Source: Isoetes taiwanensis
Taxonomy: Eukaryota > Streptophyta > Lycopodiopsida > Isoetales > Isoetaceae
Direction of reading: 5' to 3'
NCBI GenBank assembly: GCA_021234155.1
Contig: JAJEKV010000014.1
Location: forward strand, 8,573,563-8,637,562
DNA: 64,000 nt
Shown here: piece by piece, positions 19,878-57,874 of the stretch
Position numbering within the stretch: the first letter of the stretch is position 1
How the letters are laid out: each line of letters starts with the position of its first letter
Notes under the pieces: model-generated
The model's database searches: none
What the model was told of the DNA's origin: nothing
What the model saw: only the letters and a program-made list of their open reading frames with translations
Program-made: the position numbers and the translations under genes

Positions 19878-21733
19878 TGTTGAAGGTATTCCTGGCAAAA
19901 CCTTCAACCTCAGTGGTTTAGAACCTCCAGGTTGCTTAAGGCAACCACTCTGAGTGCAAAAGTTCCAGAAAGAATCACAAAAGATCACTAGGAGTGTGTT
20001 TCCCTGAAGAGAAAAAAGTCTGCCTCACAAAATCTCTTGCAGAATGTGATCTATGGGGCTATGGGTGTGGATATCACTCCTTGATGTTCTCAACACTTGT
20101 CACTAACAGACTGCAAAAGCTCAATGAGGTCAGAGTAGGCTAGGTGGGCGAGATTCAAATCACTGACCCAGTCAATTTTTGGTCAATATCCCTGACAGAG
20201 AGCTGATATTTGGAACTCGATATTGGTGATGAATTTTTTGGGACTATCAACTCTATCTTTCTCAGATTTGTCTGCACACCAGGGGCCAACTATTCTTTCT
20301 GACCAGAAAGGATCCAATTCTTTCTTTTGATAATTCTTAGCCTAAGACTGTAAGAAGAAAATGTTCTTGAAAGAATATGTAGCATAATGACAGGGGGTTT
20401 TTTTTGCGTTTTTATACACTTTTTGCTAAGGTTTTCCTATGATTTGGTGGCCGTATTCATCTATGTGTACTAAATAGTATTTCTAGAGTGCATCGTTTCT
20501 TGGCCATTGATTTTTTATAAGAGGCAAAATCGTGCGGTTGTAATTAAATTTATCTCATTTGCATAGGGTGGACCATAGTCTAATTTTTGTATTAATTTTT
20601 TTTTTAAGGGGCCGAAAAGGCATGCAAACATCGAACCCATTTGCTAGGGTTTGAAGATCTTCACAAGTTCTTTGCCGATTCGCTTTGTTGGCCGATTCAC
20701 CTGTTCATGATCTTCTGCTTTATGCTAGATATGCAAGCACCGGTGTAAAAATATTTTAGGGTTTCTGCTTCTTGTAAACGGACTCAGATACAGAAGCAAA
20801 CTGATAAATCGATTGGATTTTTTCATGCTATAATGGCCGAAGACTCTGTACCGGATTTGAAGTCCGGATTTGGCAGCGGTTGAGTGAGGATCTTGCATCA
20901 GACAAAGATGGATATGGCATTGGATGATTGAGGTACTTGTCTCGGATTTGGAGTGCAGTATGGAGTCCGGATTTGCCAGCAGCGTTATCTCAGGTTATAG
21001 TCAACTTGGTGTTCGATTTGCATTTTGCACTGCTCTTGTGATCCAGAACAATGCCATTTTGTCTACATCTCGATCCAGCTAGAGGTTCCGCAGCAGTGAG
21101 CAAAGGTCAGTAAAGCAGTTGAATATATAGTTGTAAAACAGGGTTTTGTATGCAGACGGCTATAAAAGTAGAAACCGATGGCCATATTCTGGTAAATCTA
21201 TTCTTCTTGTGTTTGCTTGCTTAAAATAAGTGCTTGGTTTTTGTATCTGTTAACATGATCTAGGGGTCTTTTAAAGCAAGCAAATTTGGCCATGAATCAT
21301 AACCAAGTGCATTATATTTCTTTTAGCTCTTCCTACATTAAATATGTAAACAAGCAGATTCTGTTGCTCTTTCCTTAGATTAGCTAATATTGCCATAGGA
21401 TATGGATGGATACCTGATTTTATTGTAAGTTCTGCAAATAAGAATAATCATCTGCATGGCACTCATGTCTATAAGGTATGGGAATGTCTGAACTAAAATT
21501 TTCTTGGCAGAGAATGTTTCTTCACAATAGAGAGACTATGAAGCATTTCGTAACATCCCATTTCGAGATTTCTTCCTTCTTTATATAGACCAGCGAGTCT
21601 AGGGCAAGGACTAACTTCCACAGTTTCTTGGCTTTTTTCTCAGATTAGGCAATAATCCACATTGCCACAGTCCATATTACAAACAGGATATGGATCAGAG
21701 AGTTTCATAAAGTAACATCATCTCGTATGCTTT

Positions 21734-22420: not shown

Positions 22421-22874
22421 AAACAACCCACATAACTACCATTAACATTAATTCACATAAACCATTACATCCAACATTTTTAGATTAAAATCCCCCTAAA
22501 ACCCCCTTTGATTTGGGTGCATATTCACACGAGGGGTGACGTAGGGCAGCGAGAGCCCCTTTAATCGTATAATATATGTATAAAATCAAAACTATTCAGT
22601 AGATACCCTCAAATCTTATAGTATTTTGCAAACTTGAATATACTGTATACAAAAATATGTACAAGCATACCCCACAAACGAGGATCGCTATGTACGGTTT
22701 GGATTGAGGAATAAAGGGCAAATATGCCCATCCAACAGCTCTCGATGCCCGGAGTCACCCCTCGTGTGAATATGCACCCAAATCAAAGGGGGTTTTAGGG
22801 GGATTTTAATCTAAAAATGTTGGATGTAATGATTTATGTGAATTAATGTTAATGGTAGTTATGTGGGTTGTTTT
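22421..22874. repeat. Fold-back repeat with ~120-bp arms
   Basis: Arms at 22,421-22,540 and 22,754-22,874 are reverse complements with about one mismatch, around a 213-bp loop. Ends read AAAACAACCC...GGGTTGTTTT. A diverged, reverse-oriented relative of the left arm plus loop lies at 59,761-60,085, so this is part of a repeat family, resembling a fold-back or MITE-type element. A GGGCCC-centred palindrome (GCCCAAAGGGC) lies just outside the left arm. Confidence 0.8.
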
Positions 22875-24865
22875 GTAAGGGTCAACTGCACGTGTATCTA
22901 ATGCTGTCTACTTCCACATACTTTGTTTGACAGGATTGAAGTTCAAACAGTGGCTCTCCCATGCTCCACACCTGTTGTGCAATACCTCATGTTCTAACAA
23001 TGCCAACTTTCCATTGCAATGCAGGGATTTGGCTTTTGCACTTTCTAAGGGTTTGTGATACAGGTAGACAAAACACAGCTAGCAATGTGCACGGGCACTA
23101 GATACTCACGCTATGACAATAAAGCTATGATAATTTTTGCTTTTTTGAAAAGATCACAAAGCAACTCAAACAAACTGCTGCAAAGGTCGGATTTTCAATT
23201 GAATCAGTCACTCAGAAGATACAATATAACATCCCAAGCTCGGGGTCTTGGGCACAGGATCAAATAGGTGCACATAAAAAATCCGGAGAATTAAGTCAAT
23301 AATCCGGATCAAAGGTAAACATAGGAGGTCAGGATCAAGCTCAAGGTTGTCAAGCCGGTCCTTCTTCAAAGCCAAAAAATCTTCTTTGCCTTCAAGCCCT
23401 CGAAACTCTTCTGTGCGAAAAATCCCTTTTGTAGAATGTCTTTGTTCGTTGAAATCTTCATCATTTCTTTCAATTCTTCTGTCTTTTAGCCCGCACTAAG
23501 CATTCATGGCATTAATCATAATGATTTGGCAGGTTTAGGTGCTGAATTAATGGTTTGTTAGGTCGCTCTGAACGGATCTTGGCATTTTCCAGGTTTAGGT
23601 TTCTGGCAGTTCGAAGAGAAATATCCCACAGGCCCAATTCAATTTAGCAGACAAAGTATATAAGGCCCAAAAAATTGATTTCTTCGATTATTGCGTCAAA
23701 GTGTCCACGTGGGATTCGGTACCTCCACGCCCTGCGCCCGGGATGCTCCTTGGGGGGGGATTGGCTTGGAAGAGAAATTAGGTCGGGGAGGGGGGGTAGA
23801 TAGGAAAAATTTTTGCACCCCTTACACCCTATGGCACGATTCCCTAGAACACATATACCATGCCTAAAATAAGGCCTTTTCTCAAAATTCTTTTTTTTCT
23901 AGGGGAATCTCTTTTTGTGCCCTATAATATTCTGGGGTCTTTTTTCACCATAGAGCTCTTTGGAGTTTGGAAAAAATTTGGGGAGTGGATGAAGTGGCAT
24001 TTGAAACACATGGCATGGCTAGGTAGTATGACATGGCCAATGGGAATGATGACGTGTCAGCCCACTTGAATTTAAAAATCCTCTCTAGTCAAAATTTTTA
24101 GAATGATGTGGAGATGATGTGTGTGAATGATGAGGTGTCAAAAGTGATGTGGCAACAATGATATTTTGAAATGAATTTTGATTTGAATGAGAGTTTGAGA
24201 TGAAAAGGATGAAATGGTGATGGGTGTGATGTGTGAAGTAAGGTGTAGGGGGACTTGGCACATCTAGTGCTCATTAGGAAGCCAAAAATTTTGTGGAGCA
24301 TCTTTGAAGCATCTTTGAGGCATATTTGAATTTTTAGCATTTCCCTTAGGGATTTTGCAAGCCTCTCTACATTTTGCTCAAGTTGCATGGAATGTTGACT
24401 TCATAAGCAAAGTTATGACTAAGTCAAGTCTCTCTTGAACTAGTGGATGATGAAGCAAGTGGGTGTTTTATGAAGGTGTATTTTGACTAGAAAGAACTTT
24501 CAAGGTCAAGTTTGACTTTGGGAGGTGTATGAGGAAGGAGTCAAGGTTCAATGCTATTTGGGATGGTGGAGTGGATGAGGATGGAAATAAAAAAAAAAAA
24601 AAATATGCCAAAGATGCCAAGCTCATAAATGATTACATACCATGGAATGCTCTTCAAGGGGTCTTCTTTCTCTTCTTCTCTACACTTCCTATGCTTGTTT
24701 GACCTTTTGCATCTCTTGAGTGACTTGAGTCAATTGTCCTTCCTTTGCTCTTCAAACTTGAGTGTATGCTAGTGAAGCATTCTCCTAATATCTTGCAAAT
24801 TGAACCAAACTGATAGGATTAGTACTAATATATGCTTGGCTCTTACATCTTTGCCATAGCATGGC

Positions 24866-28114: not shown

Positions 28115-30627
28115 TGTTGAAGGTATTCCTGGCAAAACCTTCAACCTCAGTGGTTTAGAACCTCCAGGTTGCTTAAGGCAACCACTCTGAGTGCAAAAGT
28201 TCCAGAAAGAATCACAAAAGATCACTAGGAGTGTGTTTCCCTGAAGAGAAAAAAGTCTGCCTCACAAAATCTCTTGCAGAATGTGATCTATGGGGCTATG
28301 GGTGTGGATATCACTCCTTGATGTTCTCAACACTTGTCACTAACAGACTGCAAAAGCTCAATGAGGTCAGAGTAGGCTAGGTGGGCGAGATTCAAATCAC
28401 TGACCCAGTCAATTTTTGGTCAATATCCCTGACAGAGAGCTGATATTTGGAACTCGATATTGGTGATGAATTTTTTGGGACTATCAACTCTATCTTTTCA
28501 GATTTAATCACGCACACGGGGGCCAACTATTCTTTTCGACCCGAGAAAGGATCCAATTTTCTTTTGATAATTCTTAGCCTAAGGCTGTAAGAAGAAAATG
28601 TTCTTGAAAGATAATGTTTTGTAAGGGTCAAGCTGCCGCGTGTATCTAATCTTTGTCTACTTCCACATACTTTGTTTGACGGGATTGAAGTTCAAACAAT
28701 GGCTCTCCCATGCTCCACACCTGTTGTGCAATACCTCATGTTCTAACAATGCCAACTTTCCATTGCAATGCGGGGATTTGGCTTTTTGCACTTTCTAAGG
28801 GTTTGTGATCTGGGGTAGACAAAACACGACTAGCAATGTGCGGGCACTAGATACTCACGCTATGACAATAAAGCTATGATAATTTTTGCTTTTTTGAAAA
28901 GATCACAAAGCAACTCAAACAAAGGGCTGCAAAGGTCGGATTTTCAATTGAATGGTCCACTCGGAAGATACAATATAACATCCCAAGCTCGGGGTCTTGG
29001 GCACGAGGATCAAATAGGTGCACATAAAAATCCGGAGAATTAAGTCAATAATCGGATCAAAGGTAAACATAGGAGGTCGGGATCAAGCTCAAGGTTGTCA
29101 AGCGGTCCTTCTTCAAAGCCAAAAATCTTCTTTGCCTTCAAGCCCTCGAAACTCTTACGTGCGAAAAATCCCCTTTTGTAGAATGTCTTTGTTCCGTTGA
29201 AATCTTCATCATTTCTTTCAATTCTTACGTCTTTTAGCCCGCACTAAGCATTCATGGCATTAATCATAATGATTGGCGGGTTTAGGTCTTGAATTAATGG
29301 TTTGTTAGGGTCGCTCGAAGCGGATCTTGGCATTTTCAGGTTTAGGTTTACGGCGGTTCAAGAGAAATATCCCACAGGCCCAATTCAATTTAGCAGACAA
29401 AGTATATAAGGCCCAAAAAATTGATTTCTTCTGATTATTGCGTGCAGTGTCCACGTGGGATTCGGTACCTCCACCGCCCCACACGCCCGGATGCTCCACG
29501 CGGCAGGGGGGGATTGGCTTGGAAGAGAAATTAGGCTAAGGGGGGGGTAGATAGGAAAAATTTTTGCACCCCTTACACCCTATGGCACGATTCCCTAGAA
29601 CACATATACCATGCCTAAAATAAGGCCTTTTCTCAAAATTCTTTTTTTTTTAGGGGAATCTCTTTTTGTGCCCTATAATATTCTGGGGTCTTTTTTCACC
29701 ATAGAGCTCTTTGGAGTTTGGAAAAAATTTGGGGAGTGGATGAAGTGGCATTTGAAACACATGGCATGGCTAGGTAGTATGACATGGCCAATGGGAATGA
29801 TGACGTGTCAGCCCACTTGAATTTGAAAATCCTCTCTAGTCAAAATTTTTAGAATGATGTGGAGATGATGTGTGTGAATGATGAGGTGTCAAAAGTGATG
29901 TGGCAACAATGATATTTTGAAATGAATTTTGATTTGAATGAGAGTTTGAGATGAAAAGGATGAAATGGTGATGGGTGTGATGTGTGAAGTAAGGTGTAGG
30001 GGGACTTGGCACATCTAGTGCTCATTAGGAAGCCAAAAATTTTGTGGAGCATCTTTGAAGCATCTTTGAGGCATATTTGAATTTTTAGCATTTCCCTTAG
30101 GGATTTTGCAAGCCTCTCTACATTTTGCTCAAGTTGCATGGAATGTTGACTTCATAAGCAAAGTTATGACTAAGTCAAGTCTCTCTTGAACTAGTGGATG
30201 ATGAAGCAAGTGGGTGTTTTATGAAGGTGTATTTTGACTAGAAAGAACTTTCAAGGTCAAGTTTGACTTTGGGAGGTGTATGAGGAAGGAGTCAAGGTTC
30301 AATGCTATTTGGGATGGTGGAGTGGATGAGGATGGAAATCAAAAAAAAAAAAAAAAAAAAAAAATGCCAAAGATGCCAAGCTCATAAATGATTACATACC
30401 ATGGAATGCTCTTCAAGGGGTCTTCTTTCTCTTCTTCTCTACACTTCCTATGCTTGTTTGACCTTTTGCATCTCTTGAGTGACTTGAGTCAATTGTCCTT
30501 CCTTTGCTCTTCAAACTTGAGTGTATGCTAGTGAAGCATTCTCCTAATATCTTGCAAATTGAACCAAACTGATAGGATTAGTACTAATATATGCTTGGCT
30601 CTTACATGCTGCCATAGCATGGCAGCA
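28115..30627 (-). repeat. Right LTR (5' LTR), 2,513 bp
   Basis: Complete LTR with TG...CA ends, not interrupted. Compared with the left copy it is nearly identical at 28,115-28,480 and from about 29,540 to the end, but has many small differences in between, mostly at CAG/CTG triplets. A poly-A run of about 22 lies at 30,342-30,363. Confidence 0.9.
30607..30627. repeat. Terminal hairpin of the LTR
   Basis: The last 21 bases form two 9-bp arms (TGCTGCCAT / ATGGCAGCA) around AGC. The left LTR end is diverged (CTTTGCCATAGCATGGCGA), so the hairpin is only partly preserved there. Confidence 0.6.
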
Positions 30628-46447: not shown

Positions 46448-47508
46448 CAATTGTCCATATGGCACGATCTCGTCAAGTGCAAAGGACACTAATAAAAGCT
46501 CCCATAGCTTTAAAAATGAATATTACCTCGGGCTATGAGGGATTTTGTCTATTCCCCTTTAGATTTGTATTTAGCAAGCTTGCGTAAAGAGAGCTGCATC
46601 CAGATATCATGCCACATCAGCTTAAATTGATGAGCACCATTGAATTTCTAATTTCTTAATCTAACAACTATTAAAATTTAAAAAACTCTTGGAAATTGCA
46701 TGGGCCACTCTTCTCCGTCGACTATACTTCCACTCAACTGCATCCTGCATCGGCTATAGAGTGGAGGTCGCTGAAGCTAAAAGATTGGGATTGAGAGTCT
46801 CTAGAGCTAAACGATTTGAGCTGACCTGCACCCTTACACTGATGCAAGTTAGTTTGCTTTATTCACATTCTTCCAACTAATAAGTGCAAAGAATGATATC
46901 AAAAATCTCCTTTACCCTCTTGCAAAAATCCCCTTTGCCTCCCCAACTCAAGGCGACCCCCTACTCAAGAGGGCAAAGGCAAGCCTGCCCCTTTCCCCTT
47001 TGCCCTCTTGCAGGTCCAAGCTCTTAGTTAAGCGGATTGCATTTTTGAAAACCTACAAATGTTCCTTACAATATTTTTTAGCATAGAAGATTTAGTAGAG
47101 AAAGGGGATATGTTCTATTTTATTGAAACTAAATAACATGACTTGTTTGCATTGCCAGAGATTGAAGGCTTTTAAAATATCTATCCTGTGAAAAAATCAA
47201 GTTTTAAACAAGGGCATTGTGGAAATGGTGGAGTTGCTTGCTATGTGAGGCAGGAATGCAAGCATTGTGTGAAAGGTACATGGCAGGCATGTATGGATTA
47301 AGAACAAAGGCAATCATTTATTTGGCTAGAGCAAAAAACTGATGTGGATTTTCTCTATTTTCACAAAAGTCCTTTTGGAGACCCCATATTTTCTCTAATG
47401 AGACGACATACAGTGTATATGGCAGTATGCAATTTGGCTCCACGTCATATGCAAGAATACTTAAATGCATCTAGTGACGATCTGTTTTACAATTTAGAAC
47501 AAGGCATT
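46448..47508. other. Spacer with a strong hairpin
   Basis: No gene seen. Perfect 14-bp arms CAAGAGGGCAAAGG (46,966-46,979) and CCTTTGCCCTCTTG (46,997-47,010) flank a 17-base loop. Confidence 0.6.
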
Positions 47509-47983
47509 TGTTACGAACCATAGGTTAGCAAGTAATCAAAAGATCAAACATCTATTAAGCCAACACTAAAACATTTATGATTCTCAAAACCAGGCCTTTA
47601 GCCCAAAGCTCTCCACCCAACTGGACTCGCGAAATCAAGAATCTCCAAGATAGTCCATGTGCAGTTTATGTCAAGTAAGAAGGAATTTAGGACAAACCAC
47701 CCTAAGAGAATCCTCTCTAAGGAACAAACACAGAGTTTATGGAAGCTGGCAGTTGAAGGAGCAAAAGATGATGGAGATGAGTCCCCCCTTCAATAAGTGC
47801 ATCTCCTCCCCTTATATATTGATCAAGGAGTCTTTTAGAAAGGTAAAGGTGCGTGGGCCAATTATAGAATCTTAATCTTTTCCAAGGCTCCATAAATATC
47901 TCAATTGGTTCAGGTCTTATGTTCAATTCTGCAACTATCTCATTCTTGCTTTCCGAACCACTCCTTCGAGCACCACCATATCA
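47509..47983 (-). repeat. Left LTR (3' LTR), 475 bp
   Basis: Begins TGTTACGAACC and ends ACCATATCA, just before the tract GTTCCTCCCCTTCCC (47,984-47,998), the complement of a polypurine tract. It preserves the uninterrupted site GTCAAG (47,670-47,675) where the DNA transposon inserted in the other LTR. Confidence 0.85.
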
Positions 47984-49692: not shown

Positions 49693-49857
49693 TGTTACGA
49701 ACCATAGGTTAGCTAGTAATCAAAGATCAAACATCTAGTACGCCAACACTAAAACATTTAAGATTCTCAAAACCAGGCCTTTAGCCCAAAGCTCTCCACC
49801 CAACCGGACTCGCGAAAGCAAGAATCTCCAAGATAGTCCATGCGTAGTTTATGTCAA
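49693..49857 (-). repeat. Right LTR, first segment
   Basis: Matches the first ~165 bp of the left LTR with a few differences and stops at the DNA transposon boundary. Confidence 0.85.
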
Positions 49858-49885
49858 GGTGAAAGTATGCTGGTGGGTAGCAAAA
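49858..49885 (+). repeat. Left terminal inverted repeat, 28 bp
   Basis: Begins GGTGAAAGTATGCTGG. Exact reverse complement of 57,573-57,600. Confidence 0.93.
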
Positions 49886-49969
49886 GCATGCGTCCGGACG
49901 CATGCTTATAGCAGGGTTTTAGCCCGCTTAAAGCACCCCTGCTTTTGCTTAATTTGGGGTGCTTTAAGC
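49884..49969. repeat. Left subterminal palindrome and hairpin
   Basis: A perfect 24-bp palindrome with core GCATGCGTCCGGACGCATGC lies at 49,884-49,907. It is followed by 14-bp arms GCTTAAAGCACCCC (49,926-49,939) and GGGGTGCTTTAAGC (49,956-49,969). Subterminal palindromes of this kind are often transposase-binding sites. That role is inference. Confidence 0.85.
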
Positions 49970-51803
49970 GTAACTGCCCGTCATTTTTTTTACGCCCTTC
50001 ATGTACTAACACGTCCACCTCACGAATGAACCGTTAGGATAATGATTGTGGGTTTTTGGCTGGATTTTCGCACGAGTGGTGTGGTAGTACGTTGCAAATT
50101 GGATTACTTCGTCATGGGCCGCGAAAATTCTCCCTCCAATTCAATTATCCTCCCTCTCTCAGGAATTTCATGGCGCTCCCTGATACCGGCCTGGAGGCAA
50201 TCACGCGTTTAGCATTGGATTTTCGGCCTGATGAATCCCAATACAGTGTTCCAAATTTGTTGGATGTCAATCCAACACAGGAAATATCACGTGAAGATCC
50301 AGTTTCCTCTGCAATTTACAAGAAATTGGATGCAGAGAGAAAGAGAGAATACAGATTAAGGAATAAGATGAAAAGAGAAGCGGTTGAACGGGAGGATCTG
50401 AGCATGAGACGCAGGCAAGAAATAGCCAAGCAAGTAGTTGATTACTTCAATAAGCTCACCAAAAAGCATTCACCAGAACTCAAGGCTGATGTGATGAAGA
50501 GGGTGGTTCATCACCACGAAATGGAAATCTCAGAACCTGGACTTTTGCCAAATCCAAAGGAGTGCAAGGCGGAGTCTTTGCTCAACAACTTGAAACAGAC
50601 AATGGCAGCCACAAAGAGGCTAAGGAACCATGATATTTGGAGAGCCAGAACCTCAACACTTGTGATGGCTTCTTCCACAAATTCGAGATGCAATTCCACT
50701 ATGGCAGGGCTGTTAGGTACATCTATTTCTTGTCTTCATGCCTGTGCTTCTTCATGCTTTCAAGTGCTTGTATCTGCTGAGTGATGCTGGCTGGGATATG
50801 TTCATTGATACATGTGCAATATTTCTTATGATAGGTTGCATGAGGTCAACAATTGCAACTGCTGCATTAAGGAAATCGGAAGCCTTCCTTGGAAATGGTC
50901 CGTGGTCTGCTTTCCAAAAGAGGTTGAGGTGCGATTCTCTCACCCCTGCTTGCAAGCAAAGCATAACAGAATTCTGGAAAGAAAACAGCAGAGTCTCTCC
51001 TTGCAAGAAAGATGTTGTGAACACTGTTGGAGAGTCAGGCTTCCGAATTTCTTATCCCTTGCACCTTCTGGAGGTCACACAGGTATAAGTTTCCATACAA
51101 ACTTTTTTTTCTGCTATTTCTAACCAAAGGCCACCATTCAGCTGCAGCTATATCAACAATACAAAAAGGGACATCCTGAACACCCTGTTTGCTTAAAGGC
51201 TTTCGAGAAGTTGAAGCCTATTTATGTGAAGAAAGTATCAGAAAGGGAAACCTGTTGTTGCATATACCATATGAAGTTGGAGTATGCCAGGGTAGCACTG
51301 AATGCATTAAGGTCAGCGAAAACTGGATTCCATGGTGAAGAGTGCAAGTGCACCTTGAGGTCTGTGGACTGGTGAGAAGTGTTCGGCCAGACCAACATAA
51401 TTATGACTCAACCAATGAGCTCACGGAGGGTCGTGGGTTTGCAACAAGAGCGAGGGTGAAGAATGGTATAAACATGACTGCTTGATGCAGACATGTCAGA
51501 AGTGTGGCACGAAAAGTCTTCCTATATGTCCAAGAGAAAGAGAGAATCACGAGTTCTTGCTTGAATGGAAGACGTTTGAAAAGGTAATACTCTCTTTATT
51601 GTTTGCTGAAGCATGCTGATATGTGCTGTCATGCGCTGACTACTGCTTTTGTGCTTTCAACTTGCGCTGATCTTCTTTTTTTTATGCTACAGACCTTGTT
51701 ACAGATTCCAGTGGAGACAGAAGAAGCTGATGGAGTTGCAGCCTGCGTTACCAAGGAAGTGCCAGGTGGCAGCAGAAAGAAAAGATCTAATGCCACCAAG
51801 AAG

Positions 51804-51985
51804 GGAAACCAAAGTAAGAAGTCCAAGGTAGCTGGTGGGACACGGCCTGAAGCTGCAGCACAAGCTGAGAAGAATGGAAACAAAAGTAAGAAATCCAAGG
51901 CAGCTGGTAGGACACAGCCTGAAGCTGCAGCACAAGTTGAGAAGAAGGGAAACAAAAGTAAGAAATCCAAAATTTGGTGGGACCT
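51804..51985 (+). repeat. 72-bp in-frame tandem repeat in the transposase-like gene
   Basis: Units start at 51,804, 51,876 and 51,948. Each encodes GNKSKKSKAAG-T-PEAAAQ-EK (24 residues). The KSKKSK runs are basic and could act as nuclear signals or DNA-contact arms. The third unit is truncated and diverges to IWWDLTEAA. Confidence 0.85.
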
Positions 51986-52743
51986 GACTGAAGCTGCAAA
52001 GACAAGATGAGACCTCAAATGGCAAGGGAAAAAAAAAAGAAAGGACCAAAGCCAGTTCTTAGATTGTCTTACAAGAGAACGGCAGTGAAGGCTTTCATTT
52101 CATATCTGTGTTCCACGTTGAAGATATTCGTGTCACACAATTACAGGGCTAGGTGGCAGGCCATGCAATTCAAGAGGTGCTTGGACAATATCCAAGATGG
52201 CACCATTGTTTCTGTAATTGATTTTCTTTGAGAATTACTGACATCAAAATACAAAGGGAGGTTCAAAGCGGCATTGGCACAATGACCAAATAACAATTTC
52301 GTCCACATCAATTATAGGATGGACAAATGACTCTGGGATCGAGAAAGCTATTGAAGGAAACCCATTTTACTTGAGTGATGACAAGATTCATGACACTCTT
52401 TTTGTGCAACACCGTCTTAGAAAGCACAATTCATGGCTAGTATCAAATGGTGTAGAATTCTCCGGGCATATAGTTTGGTGGGATGGTTGTTCTAGCCAAT
52501 TCAAATCTGCGGACCATTCTATTTCCTACCAAGATATCACCACGAGCTAGGGAAGGAAATAATATGGAATTTCTTTGGGACAGCCCATGGTAAGGGAGAG
52601 CACGATGGGCAAGGGGCAGTCCTCAAAGGGGCATTCACTAGAGAGCAGCTCAAGTATGATGGAGTGAGATTTAGGGGTGCTGCTGATGCCTGTGAATTCG
52701 CTATGAGTTGGAATGAAGGTGCCAGCAACGGGGACATCAAGAG

Positions 52744-52892
52744 GTAATATGCTTTCATCTGCATTCATCTGCTTTTAACGTGCTTTCATCTGCTTCACAA
52801 AGTGCTTTTATCTGCTTTTATCTGCTGTGTAATGCTGTAATGTGCCTCTGTACTGTATGTGAACTGCAATAGTTGTTGCTGGCTTTTTGCAG
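52744..52892 (+). other. Intron with degenerate TGCTTTCATC repeats
   Basis: GTAATATG...TTTTTTGCAG. Contains about six variants of TGCTTTCATCTGC. A related phrase family (TGCTGATATGTGCTG) fills the intron at 51,584-51,692. Confidence 0.7.
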
Positions 52893-53557
52893 GCACTTTT
52901 GGTTCATTGGAAAGGATGATGTTGATAGGACAGACCGGCTGGACCCGTGGCTGGGAGTGGAAGGGACGAAGGAAATACACAAAGATCGGGACATACTTGG
53001 CCAAATCAAGCACAAGGGTGGCTCATAGAGGTTTAAGTTGTTTCTGTGGTAACTGTTTGAAAGGAAACTGGTCATCTTGTGTGAACAAGCAGAGGTTAAA
53101 GAATTGGAAATATGTTACTCTAAAGCCAGAAAAGTCTACTGGTGAAGGTACTGAAGACGAAATCGATGAGGCATTTTTTGAAGGTGATGGAGAATGGCTT
53201 AGTGGAAACATAGAGGAAGGTGATAACTTTGTTTGTTGTAGCCGAGGAGGGAAATCGGGGAGAATGCAGATTTCTATGTGGTCAAATGTGTTAAGCGAGG
53301 CATATCCTTGATGTAATTGTCAAGGATATTTCGGGTCAGACCTTCAATATCGATGAACATGTGTTGGCTGGTTTGTACTATCTTTGTCCGGCCCGATGGT
53401 ACTTTGGGAGCTACTTGAAGACAAAGGTCCGACCTTCCAAAGATATCATCGCGTATCGCCATCAAGTTTGAGATGAATCGATTCACGGCACTAACAGATT
53501 TTCCCTTGATCAGGCTACTCACCAGATGATCCTTGACAGTCTGCCATATGAAGGTTG

Positions 53558-53876
53558 AATATGCTTTGACCTAGTTGTTTTATCATTTTAACAGGTCTGT
53601 AGTTACTTGTGTACTTGTCTCAAATTTTGATCATTATATTGGAGACAATGCTTGTGAGTATTGGAGTCTTTTAGTATTGGAAACAATGCTTGTAGTAGTC
53701 TTTGTATTGGAGTATTTTAGTCTTTGGAAACAATGCTTGTAGTATTGCGAGTAAGCTTGATATATATTAGAAAATTGTACACTCAACATTTGAGACATCT
53801 TACAAGATCACTCAATACTCAAGATATAACACAAAGTATCTGCATATATTACAAAAAGTAGTGTACAATGGTTACT
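53558..53876. other. Intergenic between the two convergent transposon genes
   Basis: Contains three partial copies of GGAAACAATGCTTGTAGTA (about 53,640-53,745) and AT-rich DNA suited to 3' ends of both genes. No coding seen. Confidence 0.5.
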
Positions 53877-56800
53877 TCATAAGTCATCGAAGTCCTCAAA
53901 TCTATGCTCGCCGCCGGGAAGGGTGCCCAAAGAAATTTGCCTTTGTACTTCAATAGGAGCATTGAGGATATAGTAGGTCGAGACAAGGTAGTTGTTGAGA
54001 CGGTAATCCAAAGATCAAGAATCGCCTCTCGAGGGCCAACCATGCATCGGTGAAATCAATTTGTGAGATCGTTTCTGCATCTTGTATGAGAGGCCAAGTA
54101 TTCCAAAGCAGGACACACAAACTACGCAAAAAAATTGTCCTCTTCTTGCCCCTTGAAAGGCATAACAGAAGCGGTTGTGTGTGCGGGGGTTTAGAAACCC
54201 TTTGTGCGGTTTGTCATCAACCAAGAAAATCATACCATGATATTGAGGAAAATCCTCAAGAACAACCTTCAACTCCTTGAAAAATAGTTGCTTTTTCAGG
54301 TCTTTGGTTGGATGCTCGCATGCATAGCAATGCTCTTGACCATATATCTTCAAGAATCTGGTCTGCAGATCAGGGAACAATGCATCCACCATATCCCTTG
54401 TATTCCGAAGTAGAGAAGCACTCCAAATCACAACATCAAACCTCTGCAGTGCCCACTCCACAAACTCATGATACCCTGGTCTGCAAATGAGGTACTTACT
54501 TGCAGTTTCTTTTACAACATGGTTCGTTTGTGGTGGATGCAAGATTTTTTGATTCATTCTCCTCTGTTATTAATGTGCCCGATTACACCATTTATGTCAA
54601 GCACCATGCACTTCCGTGCGGGTGTCCATCCCTCGGCGTTTGCAACCCTTTGTCGATGGGCTGCCGCATCGTGCTTTATGCGTCTTTGGGCTGTCTTTGG
54701 GAAGTGCTATATCCGGACGTCTTTGGAAGTTCTTTGCGACCTCTTTGGACTCGGTTTATCTTTGCTACCAGGTGATGGAGAGTGCTGATAGCCATAGCTA
54801 GATACATCCTTACTAGTATCTCCCTGTCCCCAATGTATGGGTGTTTCCTGGCTATCAGTAACCCGTACCAAGTGGTGGCTTAGGGTCCTTGGTCTCCTGC
54901 AAAATCAAAAGTGGTGCTACAATTACCAACCTGGCTGGCGAGGACATTATGCCAAGTGAAATAAGACAAGTAAAATAACTGCTTGAACTTAAATATTGGA
55001 TTGCACCTTTTATATGTAAGAGTTTGTTTTGCACTTTGGTTTCTTCATTATCCGTGCGGGTTCTCTCACTATCTTGAGCCTCAGTTGATTAAGCACCACT
55101 TGTGGCTGCCTTCTCCTTCGCATGCAAATGCATATTGATCCCTAGGTTGAAACTTCGAAACAAATTTTACAAGGACACAATGGGGAAAAACATATATTAT
55201 GGTATTACACAAAAACCTTTTAAGCGATCGTTTTGCCAAGTCTTGTGCAAACAAAATTGGCCCCTGAAACGAAAGTACATATAAATTACATTAGATTTTG
55301 TTTTTTTCCTAGTGCCACGTCTATAGGCACATCCTCATCAACCGAATCATCGACTCACCCTCACTCTCGGGCTCCGGGACCTTTTTGGTCCCGGACCTTG
55401 AGAACTTGTGATTCGGCTCACAACCTTGTTCACTGCTTATCCACTATATTGGTCTTCAACATCCTTATGCCGCCTGCATCAACGGTGTTAGAGGAGGCCT
55501 TTGTAGAGGTTCTTTGCAGAATTTGGAACTATATTGTATTTTCGGCATCGTCGCCGAACTACCGGAATCGCTTTGGACCGTGTTGGTGTCTTTTGCACGG
55601 TGCTTTTGGTCTTTGCAATGTCTTCAGCCGACCGCTTGCCTCGTCTTTGTTCACTTTGTCTCTGGCGCTTCTAATGTACCCACTTCAGAAACAAACGCGT
55701 GTACCTTTTTGGCTGTTCTTGCTTGTGGAGTTCGAGTCCTTGTAGACTTGTGTCCGGGGTCCTTTACTAAGAGGTGTTTTGACATGCTTCCTTTTCTGTT
55801 GATATCACGGAGTTGTAGCTACCACCTCATCTAGGTCAATTGTCTCAACTATTTGTTTGTGTGTTGCCCCAAACATGTAAGGGTTCTGCTATTTGTCTTC
55901 CCCAATTCCTCCACTAAGCCTCTTTGGGGCTGTTTTACGAGCATTCGAGGCGGTGTGTCTTCTCCATAAGCAAACTCAGGCGGTGACATGATATCGTGGC
56001 CACATTTCAGCTTCGGACTTAGGGTGTAATCATCCGGAATGCCGGCCCGCATGTGGAGCATCGCTCCTCATCTCCAATTGGCAACTTTGAATGTCACCGG
56101 GATAGATGCTCACAAGCTGGCCAGCTCTCCTTGTAAGTTCCCTAAGCCTGTTGAGATTACAGTAAATCTTTGGCTTTTGCAAGTTGCGCCGGTGTTTGCA
56201 ACCTCGGCGGCTATAGTGGCCACTGTTGAACTATCCCTCATCTATTGGGCCACCCCCATTTCAACAAGGGCTTTGAGCATGTACTCGCCATGTCTTTCTC
56301 TCTCTCAAGCTCGAGCTTCTCAGAGGCACCGACATCGGGACACAGAGCTGCTTGAAGGCGTGAGATGTTGTCTTTAATTTTCTGCAATTTCTCTTACGAA
56401 GCCAAGAAGAAAGCTCCCTTAGCACGGGGACTGGACAACTAGCTCCTTCTTGGAGACTAAATCGGCTGCTTTGCGTGTCTAGGGTTTCCCCGCAAATCTT
56501 TGCATAGGACTTCAGGCGTGATATGTTCTCCCCATAAGTTGTGTGTAATTTGTTGGGCGCGATGCAAAGCTCTAATGGACGGCCTCCCTTCTAATTTAAT
56601 ACCGGTGCCTCCGAACCCGGCCTTTCGCTATGCTTTTCGGTCTTTGTGGTTTGCCGAGATTTGCTGGCCTCGCCTACGCTTCTTTGGAGCACCGGGCGCT
56701 TGCCGGTTCACTTTTAACCTTCTTCTTTGTAGGCTCTACTCTTTCCGCAACGCTGCCCAATTAACCTTGAACTTCTGTGGATCCTGCTTTGCTCTGAGGC

Positions 56801-57350
56801 AGTTATTGAATGCAAATAGGTATGATACTGTCTTTCTAACTTCTCTGTTCTTCAACCCGTCCGGGTATATTTTGCTCAGAAGCTCTATTAGAGCTTCTTC
56901 GTGCTCTGGCCTCACCTTGTCAATGGAAGTTTTGCCAGGAATGACCCCGTTGGTATCCCAAACTTCATTGTACTGCTGCAGAAATGAGGTCTGCGTTGAA
57001 ATTGAGAGGGATGAACGCCCTCGTTTGGCGGACACTGCATACGCATGGAAGTCTTCTTTGGTTCGGCAATCAGCTAGGTCCGGTCTTAAGGGAACGTTTC
57101 TTCCGGCCCGAAGAATGCAAGAAAATCGAATTAAATCGTGGTTGAACCCTAAACCCATTGAAATTTTGTTTTGTTGCTTTTTGCTTACCCGGATAATGGG
57201 TTCCGTTGGAATTACTGCTTGAGCGGGCGGATCAATCACCTTCTTTACCATGGTTGATCTGTTTGTATAAAGTGGAAATCCGAAAGCGCAAATTCGCGGG
57301 TTGCTTGGCCGGAGTAGAGAAAGTTGGGGAAGAGAGATTTGGAAAAACAC
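53877..57350 (-). pseudogene. Transposon-borne gene ending in an FCP1/NIF-like phosphatase domain
   Basis: Minus-strand gene convergent with the transposase-like gene. The 5' exon 57,350-56,736 (likely start ATG at 57,251, MVKKVIDPPAQ) encodes a domain I do not recognise (YNEVWDTNGVIPGKTSIDKV). A basic tract and a coiled-coil-like segment (KIKDNISRLQAALCPD near 56,370) follow in shifted frames. The C-terminal part is clear: VLDINGVI at about 54,583-54,606 matches the hhhD-x-[D/N]-G motif of the FCP1/NIF branch of HAD phosphatases. CRPGYHEFVEWALQRFDVVI, WSASLLRNT and IFLVDDKPHKGFLNP follow within 54,557-54,015, and GTLPGGEHRFEDFDDL ends at TGA 53,877-53,879. The second catalytic Asp is Asn, as in plant DLNG-type relatives. 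A frameshift near 54,560 and one near 54,010 break it. Known relatives dephosphorylate serine in proteins. The role here is unknown. Confidence 0.65.
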
Positions 57351-57498
57351 AAATTCGAAAGTTCGTTCGTTTGTCTAGTGGTTCCAGATTGCAGGGGTCG
57401 CTTTCATTACTGGGGGCGGCAAACAGGTAATGATTGTATAAACGGGTACCGGCTAGACGAATAGACGGGCAGAATATAGGTGGTACTATATAGGTGAA

Positions 57499-57566
57499 GG
57501 GTGGGAAAAAAATGTATGACGGGTGGGAAAAAATGTATTTTGGGTGCTGGTGCTGGTGCTGGGGTC
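57499..57566. repeat. Right subterminal repeats
   Basis: Two copies of GGGTGGGAAAA-AATGTA (about 57,499-57,516 and 57,521-57,537), then TGGGTGCTGGTGCTGGTGCT (57,541-57,560) leading to the right inverted repeat. Confidence 0.75.
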
Positions 57567-57572
57567 GCGTTT

Positions 57573-57600
57573 TTTTGCTACCCACCAGCATACTTTCACC
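57573..57600 (-). repeat. Right terminal inverted repeat, 28 bp
   Basis: Ends CCAGCATACTTTCACC. Exact reverse complement of 49,858-49,885. Confidence 0.93.
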
Positions 57601-57601
57601 C

Positions 57602-57874
57602 GTCAAGCAAGAAGGGATTTAGGACAAAACACCCTTAGAGAATCCTCTCTGAGGAACAACTGTAGAGTTTATAGAAGCTGGCAAGCGGCAGTTGAAGGAG
57701 TCGAAGATGATGGAGATGGGTCCCCCCTCCAATAAGTGCACCTCTTCCCCTTATATAGGGATTAAGGAGCCTTTTTAGAAAAAGGTAAAGGTTCGTGGGC
57801 CAACTATAGAATCTCAACCTTTTCCAAGGTTCCATAAATATCTCAATGGTTCAGGTCTTATGTTCAATTCCGCA
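57602..57874 (-). repeat. Right LTR, second segment, end missing
   Basis: Resumes at GTCAAG and follows the left LTR to ATTCCGCA. The left copy continues for ~50 bp to ACCATATCA, but this copy changes to unrelated sequence at 57,875, so the end was lost or replaced. Confidence 0.8.

Follow-up and report, generated by a model that had tools for sequence, protein, structure and literature searches.

Does a plant DNA transposon carry, beside its transposase, a second gene that belongs to it, and what might such a gene do? The question is raised by a locus of Isoetes taiwanensis in a stretch of 64,000 nucleotides (assembly GCA_021234155.1, contig JAJEKV010000014.1, positions 8,573,563 to 8,637,562), which is referred to here as the window and whose own numbering is used throughout. 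An initial annotation had placed in this window a transposon with terminal inverted repeats (TIRs) that contains a transposase-like gene (gene 1) and an FCP1/NIF-type phosphatase gene (gene 2). The transposon was found to be one copy of a family in which the two genes are kept together genome-wide and are under purifying selection. The reading that we hold with good confidence is that of a cut-and-paste TIR family that probably represents a new lineage within the superfamily Sola, with two genes that belong together and gene 2 as a probable helper.

Boundaries, target site and copy number

Comparison of copies corrected the span of the element to 49857-57601 (7745 bp), with two convergent genes inside. 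The TIRs are perfect over 28 bp, as first described (left, 49858-49885, + strand; right, 57573-57600, - strand), and arms of 38 nt match at 89%. Target site duplications (TSDs) were exactly 4 bp in all 18 copies with both ends readable, and a 5- or 6-bp match was seen in none of them; this count took in 14 of 20 loci chosen by their left end, the window copy and loci L029, L031 and L036, while, of the 29 stretches (28 loci plus the window), the other 11 were without both readable ends and were left out. The target repeat initially given as GTCAAG is indeed present on both sides, but a duplication of 6 bp is ruled out by these 18 copies. The TSD of the window copy is GTCA (49853-49856 and 57602-57605, both placed by copy comparison and the left one also by the empty site described below), and it resembles GTCAAG because the first base of the element, which starts AGGTG here, is A instead of the usual G. 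The ends of the family are GGGTG...CACCC, with variants in L029 (GAGCA...TGCCC) and L036 (start GGGGG), and two-ended copies are 7.4-8.1 kb long. L029 represents a divergent subfamily that contains both genes, makes a 4-bp TSD and has a TIR variant of its own.

An empty target site at 47670-47675 had been noted in a sister repeat (47505-47939, + strand, a probable long terminal repeat). This site is real, since the joined flanks of the element give one continuous alignment to the sister repeat, unbroken across the junction over 445 columns at 88.5% identity. Taken together, the TIRs, the TSDs and the empty site argue for cut-and-paste transposition with a 4-bp stagger.

Genome searches were made in the assembly of the same species (1,658,258,908 bases, 1110 contigs). 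They showed that the TIR pair is repeated rather than peculiar to this locus, 40 of the 40 scored left-end matches being 96-100% identical, with 813 first-look candidates. Twenty of these 40 loci were taken for study, together with eight more found via a gene 1 match and 20 short stretches with NIF domains. Both TIRs were recovered by strict match in 14 of the 20 left-end loci; among the remaining six, L016, L017, L021 and L019 (with an insertion) align end to end, and L026 and L027 do not.

The two genes are kept together and under purifying selection

As initially proposed, the element holds a convergent pair of spliced genes, gene 1 at 50170-53558 (+ strand) and gene 2 at 57251-53877 (- strand), with splice sites read by eye. 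The frames of gene 1 are broken in the window, and open counterparts of both genes were found in L016, L029 and L031. In the genome, at least 150 matches to gene 1 at 67-95% identity are among those listed, out of 7892 first-look candidates. A match to the N-terminal domain of gene 2 lay within 12 kb of 57 of the 150 listed gene 1 matches, a lower bound, where 0.33 would be expected by chance; all 57 pairs were convergent and mostly about 4.0 kb apart. Similarly, gene 1 was found within 20 kb of 18 of the 148 listed matches to the NIF domain of gene 2, again a lower bound, with 16 of the 18 convergent. Fifteen of these pairs were separated by 4 kb or less (14 convergent) and 12 by 1.16-1.41 kb. 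The NIF region was also retained in 15 aligned copies, with a mean gap fraction of 0.011-0.023 in three 200-bp bins from 54058, where a single NIF-less copy among the 15 would give 0.067. L046 presents a complete set, in which gene 1 and N-domain matches adjoin the NIF domain. The two genes are kept together genome-wide, and this pairing supports the earlier proposal that the NIF gene is a lasting part of the TIR family.

The ratio of nonsynonymous to synonymous divergence (dN/dS, by Nei-Gojobori) was used to assess selection on both genes. For the NIF domain it was 0.15-0.19 between L046 and five other members, at a synonymous divergence (dS) of 0.79-1.12, and of the other ten pairs nine gave 0.23-0.55 and one very close pair 0.97. 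The N-domain gave 0.046 (one pair, L031 and L029) and the core of gene 1 gave 0.19-0.48 (15 pairs); Fisher tests returned p values of 4e-20 for the NIF domain of L031 and L046 and of 1.9e-29 for the N-domain. Both genes are under purifying selection, and gene 2 lies below 1 in the comparison that had been suggested for it at the outset. Because selection keeps gene 2 together with the candidate transposase, gene 2 probably helps the element.

Between L029 and L031, dS was 0.25 for gene 1, 0.34 for the NIF domain and 1.54 for the N-domain, and since it differs by segment the subfamilies seem to exchange segments. L029 (C1100:13731756-13740355) is thus a mosaic, its gene 1 close to that of L031 and its gene 2 N-domain far older.

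Gene 1 and superfamily placement

Gene 1 was modelled on the + strand with five exons (50170-50716, 50835-51082, 51142-51583, 51693-52743 and 52893-53558), again with splice sites read by eye. Exon 3 (51142-51583; counterpart L029:1745-2185) is Cys/His-rich and zinc-binding-like, and the region gave no Pfam or NCBIfam match. Exon 4, which is open over 351 residues in L031 and 415 in L016, holds VIDFAENY, WSDGCSSQF and HGKGEHDG, in agreement with the ENY and HGKG-DG blocks first noticed in a transposase-like gene. A catalytic-core candidate comprising the three motifs was placed at 52061-52743 (+ strand) by an alignment of eight sequences, by spacing and by the match of the window; its candidate triad, D-x86-D-x40-D, is invariant in eight close relatives (L031 and kin) and frame-broken in the window. 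The motif, the TIRs and the TSD point to gene 1 as a DDD transposase.

Exon 4 also contains about three 72-bp tandem units (51798-51970) that encode a Lys-rich repeat, with more units in L016 and fewer in L029. Short repeats of the type TGCTTTTATCTGCT are common to the introns of gene 1 (50755-50789, 51614-51648 and 52749-52837).

The family is probably a new lineage of Sola, to which it is likened by its TSD, its size and its D-D-D candidate. Sola elements have a DDD transposase, 4-bp TSDs, TIRs of 11-1124 bp and lengths of mostly 2-9 kb (PMC10741241), and occur in some plants such as moss while being uncommon in flowering plants (PMC10741241). The present family has the 4-bp TSD in 18 of 18 copies, and its 28-bp TIRs and 7.4-8.1 kb length lie inside the Sola ranges. 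It thereby resembles Sola1 of Physcomitrella and SOLA in Azolla, which are alike in TSD, TIRs, length, a DDD candidate and residence in seedless plants (PMC10741241, PMC6786969, PMC9033089). Unlike Sola, the element described here adds a second gene with a RING-H2 finger and a NIF domain. The initial description of the transposon as unnamed is uncertain, as the 4-bp TSD and the D-D-D candidate fit Sola. The accessible portion of the main text of the Isoetes sinensis genome paper (PMC10541799) mentions neither Sola nor a DNA transposon.

That the element instead represents a superfamily of its own, so far undescribed, with TSDs of 4 bp is a serious contender, though not the placement that we favour. 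Gene 1 is without a match above cut-off in Pfam or NCBIfam, and short-pattern scans of viral contigs and prokaryotic genomes confirmed no relative, both of which speak for such a superfamily; the length of the TSD, the range of sizes and the fact that Sola occurs in moss and ferns (PMC10741241, PMC6786969) agree instead with a Sola placement.

Other superfamilies were also considered. Ginger elements have TSDs of 4-6 bp (PMC10741241), a range that includes the 4 bp observed. In contrast to their TG...CA ends, TIRs of 40-270 bp and Gypsy-type integrase, however, the family has GGGTG...CACCC ends and 28-bp TIRs, and no Pfam integrase was found in the scanned pieces of gene 1. Transib elements produce TSDs of 5 bp and hAT elements TSDs of 8 bp. 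Those of MULE elements are 7-12 bp (PMC10741241). All three were rejected on the 4 bp found in 18 of 18 copies.

Gene 2 encodes a RING-H2 finger and a NIF/FCP1-like domain

Gene 2 (53877-57251, - strand) was traced through aligned copies. Exon 1 (57251-57189) encodes MVKKVIDPPAQAVIPTEPIIR; the aligned copies show a GTAAG donor at its end. Exon 2 starts at 57107, and further predicted exons lead to the stop at 53879-53877. Exon 2 comprises an N-terminal domain of no known family (56748-57107, - strand, recognised by protein matches and by the dN/dS of L031 and L029), a coiled-coil-like stretch read by eye and a RING-H2 finger (55926-56072, - strand). The first two had been described initially, as an unrecognised N-terminal domain and a coiled coil, and are retained; the RING-H2 finger had been overlooked.

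RING-H2 fingers follow the rule C-x2-C-x(9-39)-C-x(1-3)-H-x(2-3)-H-x2-C-x(4-48)-C-x2-C. While the finger is frame-broken in the window, it could be read whole in five of the 21 rows that include its start, being identical in L010, L015, L016 and L028 and diverged in L033, where the eight ligands are all present and spaced alike. The spacing of 2,15,1,2,2,9,2 in L016 and L033, two lineages, agrees with the canonical rule, and the best matches among solved structures were the E3 ligases AMFR, RLIM and RNF13 (E 0.009-0.065).

The NIF/FCP1-like domain (54003-54646, - strand), with VLDINGV and FLVDDKPHKGF, was recognised by protein matches and by Pfam PF03031 (cut-off 21.8), which scored 46.9 bits for a consensus piece, 36.9 for part of L029 and 64.0, 68.1 and 77.4 among L031, L055 and L046. 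Its sole match of solved structure is UBLCP1 (E 5e-5). AlphaFold, given a single sequence and no alignment, modelled the domain at a mean confidence (pLDDT) of 36. The catalytic motif of active NIF/FCP1 phosphatases is DxDx(T/V); in DxDxT, HAD phosphatases use the second Asp as their general acid/base. The first motif in the family departs from DxDx(T/V), reading DINGV, DLNGV or, in L030, DINVV, and Asn replaces the second Asp in L016, L029, L030, L031, L033, L046, L055 and the window. Since the motif reads DxN, phosphatase activity is doubtful; the FCP1/NIF-type domain that was first proposed is borne out by PF03031, and its action as a phosphatase is unproven.

It thus appears unlikely that gene 2 is an active phosphatase, as suggested initially, working on the transposase or on the RNA polymerase II (Pol II) tail, with the RING finger secondary. 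The NIF fold and the nucleophile Asp are retained, a second Asp pair is present as LVDDS in L029, L030, L046 and L055 (though LVYDS in L031), and the nearest solved relative, UBLCP1, is itself a NIF phosphatase, all of which would suit an active enzyme; the Asn in place of the second Asp in every member read does not. Gene 2 has the NIF fold in common with UBLCP1 and the SCP-type phosphatases. It differs from these in reading DxN, where UBLCP1 has DxDxT, and in possessing a RING finger, and we know of no RING partner domain in UBLCP1 or SCP-type NIF phosphatases.

Origin of the NIF gene

Outside the transposon family, 18 NIF loci, a sample of the NIF genes of the genome, were compared with the NIF domain of gene 2, and the nearest was at most 31% identical. 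Recent capture of a local gene of the host is therefore disfavoured, and no source of recent identity, which had been raised as a possible origin, was present among these 18 loci. A tree was built with FastTree from 20 sampled NIF loci, L029 and L031. The DxNG sequences (L044, L045, L047-L049, L051-L054 and the transposon family) formed one group with support 1.00, inside which the deeper branching was weak (support 0.05-0.34), and the DxDxT sequences fell outside.

These data bear on whether gene 2 is captured host cargo (a Pack-type transduplication), a RING/NIF gene of the host taken once and carried passively, which we regard as improbable. The DxNG group has many other members in the same genome, and MULE elements, which have captured host genes for the plant mobile domain (PMD), provide a plant precedent (PMC5418596). 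Against passive carriage stand the purifying selection across diverged subfamilies, the convergent order in 57 of 57 pairs, the presence of gene 2 in 15 aligned copies and the identity of no more than 31% to the nearest of the sampled outside loci. An old capture that turned useful is compatible with a helper role for gene 2; it is only the recent, passive capture that is disfavoured.

The DxNG NIF domain might itself be a transposon-borne family, in which related transposase lineages each carry NIF as a standard second gene and from which part of the DxNG repertoire of plants descends; we put this forward tentatively, as the support for NIF beside other transposase lineages is thin. Twenty-one sites in the genome match HGKGxxDGxG with a CAC His codon, which is unused in the family copies read, and a reversed control gave 0. 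For one of these sites, a NIF match of another class lies in convergent orientation at a distance of about 3.5 kb, with a second at 11.6 kb, where 0.047 would be expected within 20 kb; the other 20 are without a NIF neighbour among 92 hand-picked NIF positions, a partial list. In a second DxNG class (L047/L049), 13 of 154 reported matches were at least 85% identical over at least 190 residues, the locus itself included.

Several further observations concern these sequences. The 21 sites encode HGKGEHDGAG, HGKGEHDGQG or HGKGTHDGEG and belong to other transposase lineages (for example C1103:74705). Copies of the class of L047 (C1027:14502650-14503350) and L049 (C1043:12179000-12179700) at 85-100% identity are dispersed on many contigs and are perhaps mobile; the class also has decayed copies and weaker matches down to 25%. 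A NIF-like relic of another class (L007:2-474) lies outside the copy at C1029:4369106, about 1 kb from its left end.

Copy differences and the state of the frames

Differences between 20 copies were concentrated around CHG/CG sites: positions no more than 3 bp from such a site make up 43% of the total and hold 74% of the differences. Differences from the majority per site and copy amounted to 0.142 there and 0.036 elsewhere. Near these sites, transversions made up 28%, indels 34% and C>T/G>A changes 21%; away from them the shares were 22%, 52% and 8%. Copy identity to the majority was 95.3-98.6% away from CHG/CG and 83.9-93.3% near them. The v1 assembly of I. taiwanensis was made from nanopore reads and polished (PMC8566536). 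The clustering is likely to reflect base-calling error at methylated sites, which short reads could not polish in repeats, and some real deamination is possible given the higher share of C>T/G>A near CHG/CG. Because of this likely error, many of the broken frames, those of the window copy included, need not be real. The star-like divergence of the copies was likewise doubted as a measure of real age, since the differences cluster at CHG/CG sites. That the copies are dead relics whose gene signals are due to chance or assembly artefact is very improbable, for while frames are broken in most copies read and differences cluster as described, there are exons that stay open over 351, 415 and as many as 693 residues, selection at high synonymous divergence and exact 4-bp TSDs.

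Elsewhere in the window, two pairs of direct repeats, at 22869-24865 and 28615-30623 (2.0 kb, 95.7%) and at 19878-20380 and 28115-28617 (0.5 kb, 96.8%), are perhaps ends of another mobile element.

Weighing the proposed helper role

A number of results weigh against the reading of a transposase accompanied by a helper. For gene 1, the best Pfam hits were weak and below cut-off (DUF5110, NUDIX_5 and YmgD, E 0.008-0.035), neither NCBIfam nor the PDB gave a match, the D-D-D triad is drawn from conservation in close relatives, and AlphaFold with eight sequences produced a poor model of the transposase exon (pLDDT 37). For gene 2, 16 of the 21 RING rows are frame-broken, zf-RING_2 scored 20.8 and 20.3 bits, under the curated Pfam cut-off of 27.3, and the role of the protein is deduced from its domains. 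Selection on the RING-bearing exon was milder (dN/dS 0.37, one pair, stops skipped), and three close NIF pairs (dS 0.02-0.13) gave 0.54, 0.55 and 0.97. The pairing also has gaps: the presence of the NIF gene across copies stood in 15 of the 15 aligned, but L034 and L035, two of the eight loci picked by gene 1, show no NIF in the blastn stretch or among the protein matches listed, and L030 has no N-domain in the stretch taken.

In the mechanism that we propose, gene 1, as an RNase H-type DDD transposase, would bind the GGGTG...CACCC ends, cut, and insert the element with a 4-bp stagger. Gene 2 would be a helper and not cargo. Its RING-H2 finger may recruit a ubiquitin-conjugating enzyme (E2) so that a target becomes ubiquitinated. 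Its NIF domain, in which DxN stands for DxD, may serve as a phosphoprotein-binding targeting module, perhaps for the Pol II tail, and not as a phosphatase. As a guess that we offer with reserve, the two domains together could remove or re-route a host silencing factor or set the level of the transposase, the protein's target being a factor of the host that acts in silencing or in transcription.

To our knowledge, few eukaryotic DNA transposons have a second gene of recognisable regulatory chemistry, the RAG2-like and MULE-captured PMD genes being examples. TransibSU and the RAG1L-RAG2L pair likewise form a two-protein TIR transposon in which a RING finger is involved (PMC4411706); there, in contrast, the RING sits in the transposase, and the partner is a Kelch-PHD protein and not RING-NIF. 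According to that 2015 paper, no known transposable elements beyond the Transib and Chapaev elements discussed encode the RING finger (PMC4411706). Sola2-Fanzor1 elements similarly couple a Sola transposase and 4-bp TSDs to an unrelated second gene, which, unlike RING-NIF, is TnpB-like and varies between families (PMC3627910). MULE-PMD elements are plant DNA transposons with a host-type domain for which an anti-silencing role was suggested by the authors, but they belong to the MULE superfamily, are recent captures and have the PMD fused to the transposase (PMC5418596). In our literature search, over partly accessible texts, no DNA transposon was reported to carry a NIF or RING-NIF gene.

For work on the I. 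taiwanensis genome, a likely nanopore artefact of the methylation type would mislead calls of age and of pseudogenes. The RING-H2 and NIF protein, conserved under purifying selection, suggests that a transposon spreads in a plant by manipulating ubiquitin or phosphoproteins linked to transcription, and the transposon-borne NIF may have given rise to a family of plant proteins. The RING-NIF gene is a candidate, open to testing, for the means by which a group of transposons became so numerous in the genome of a plant.

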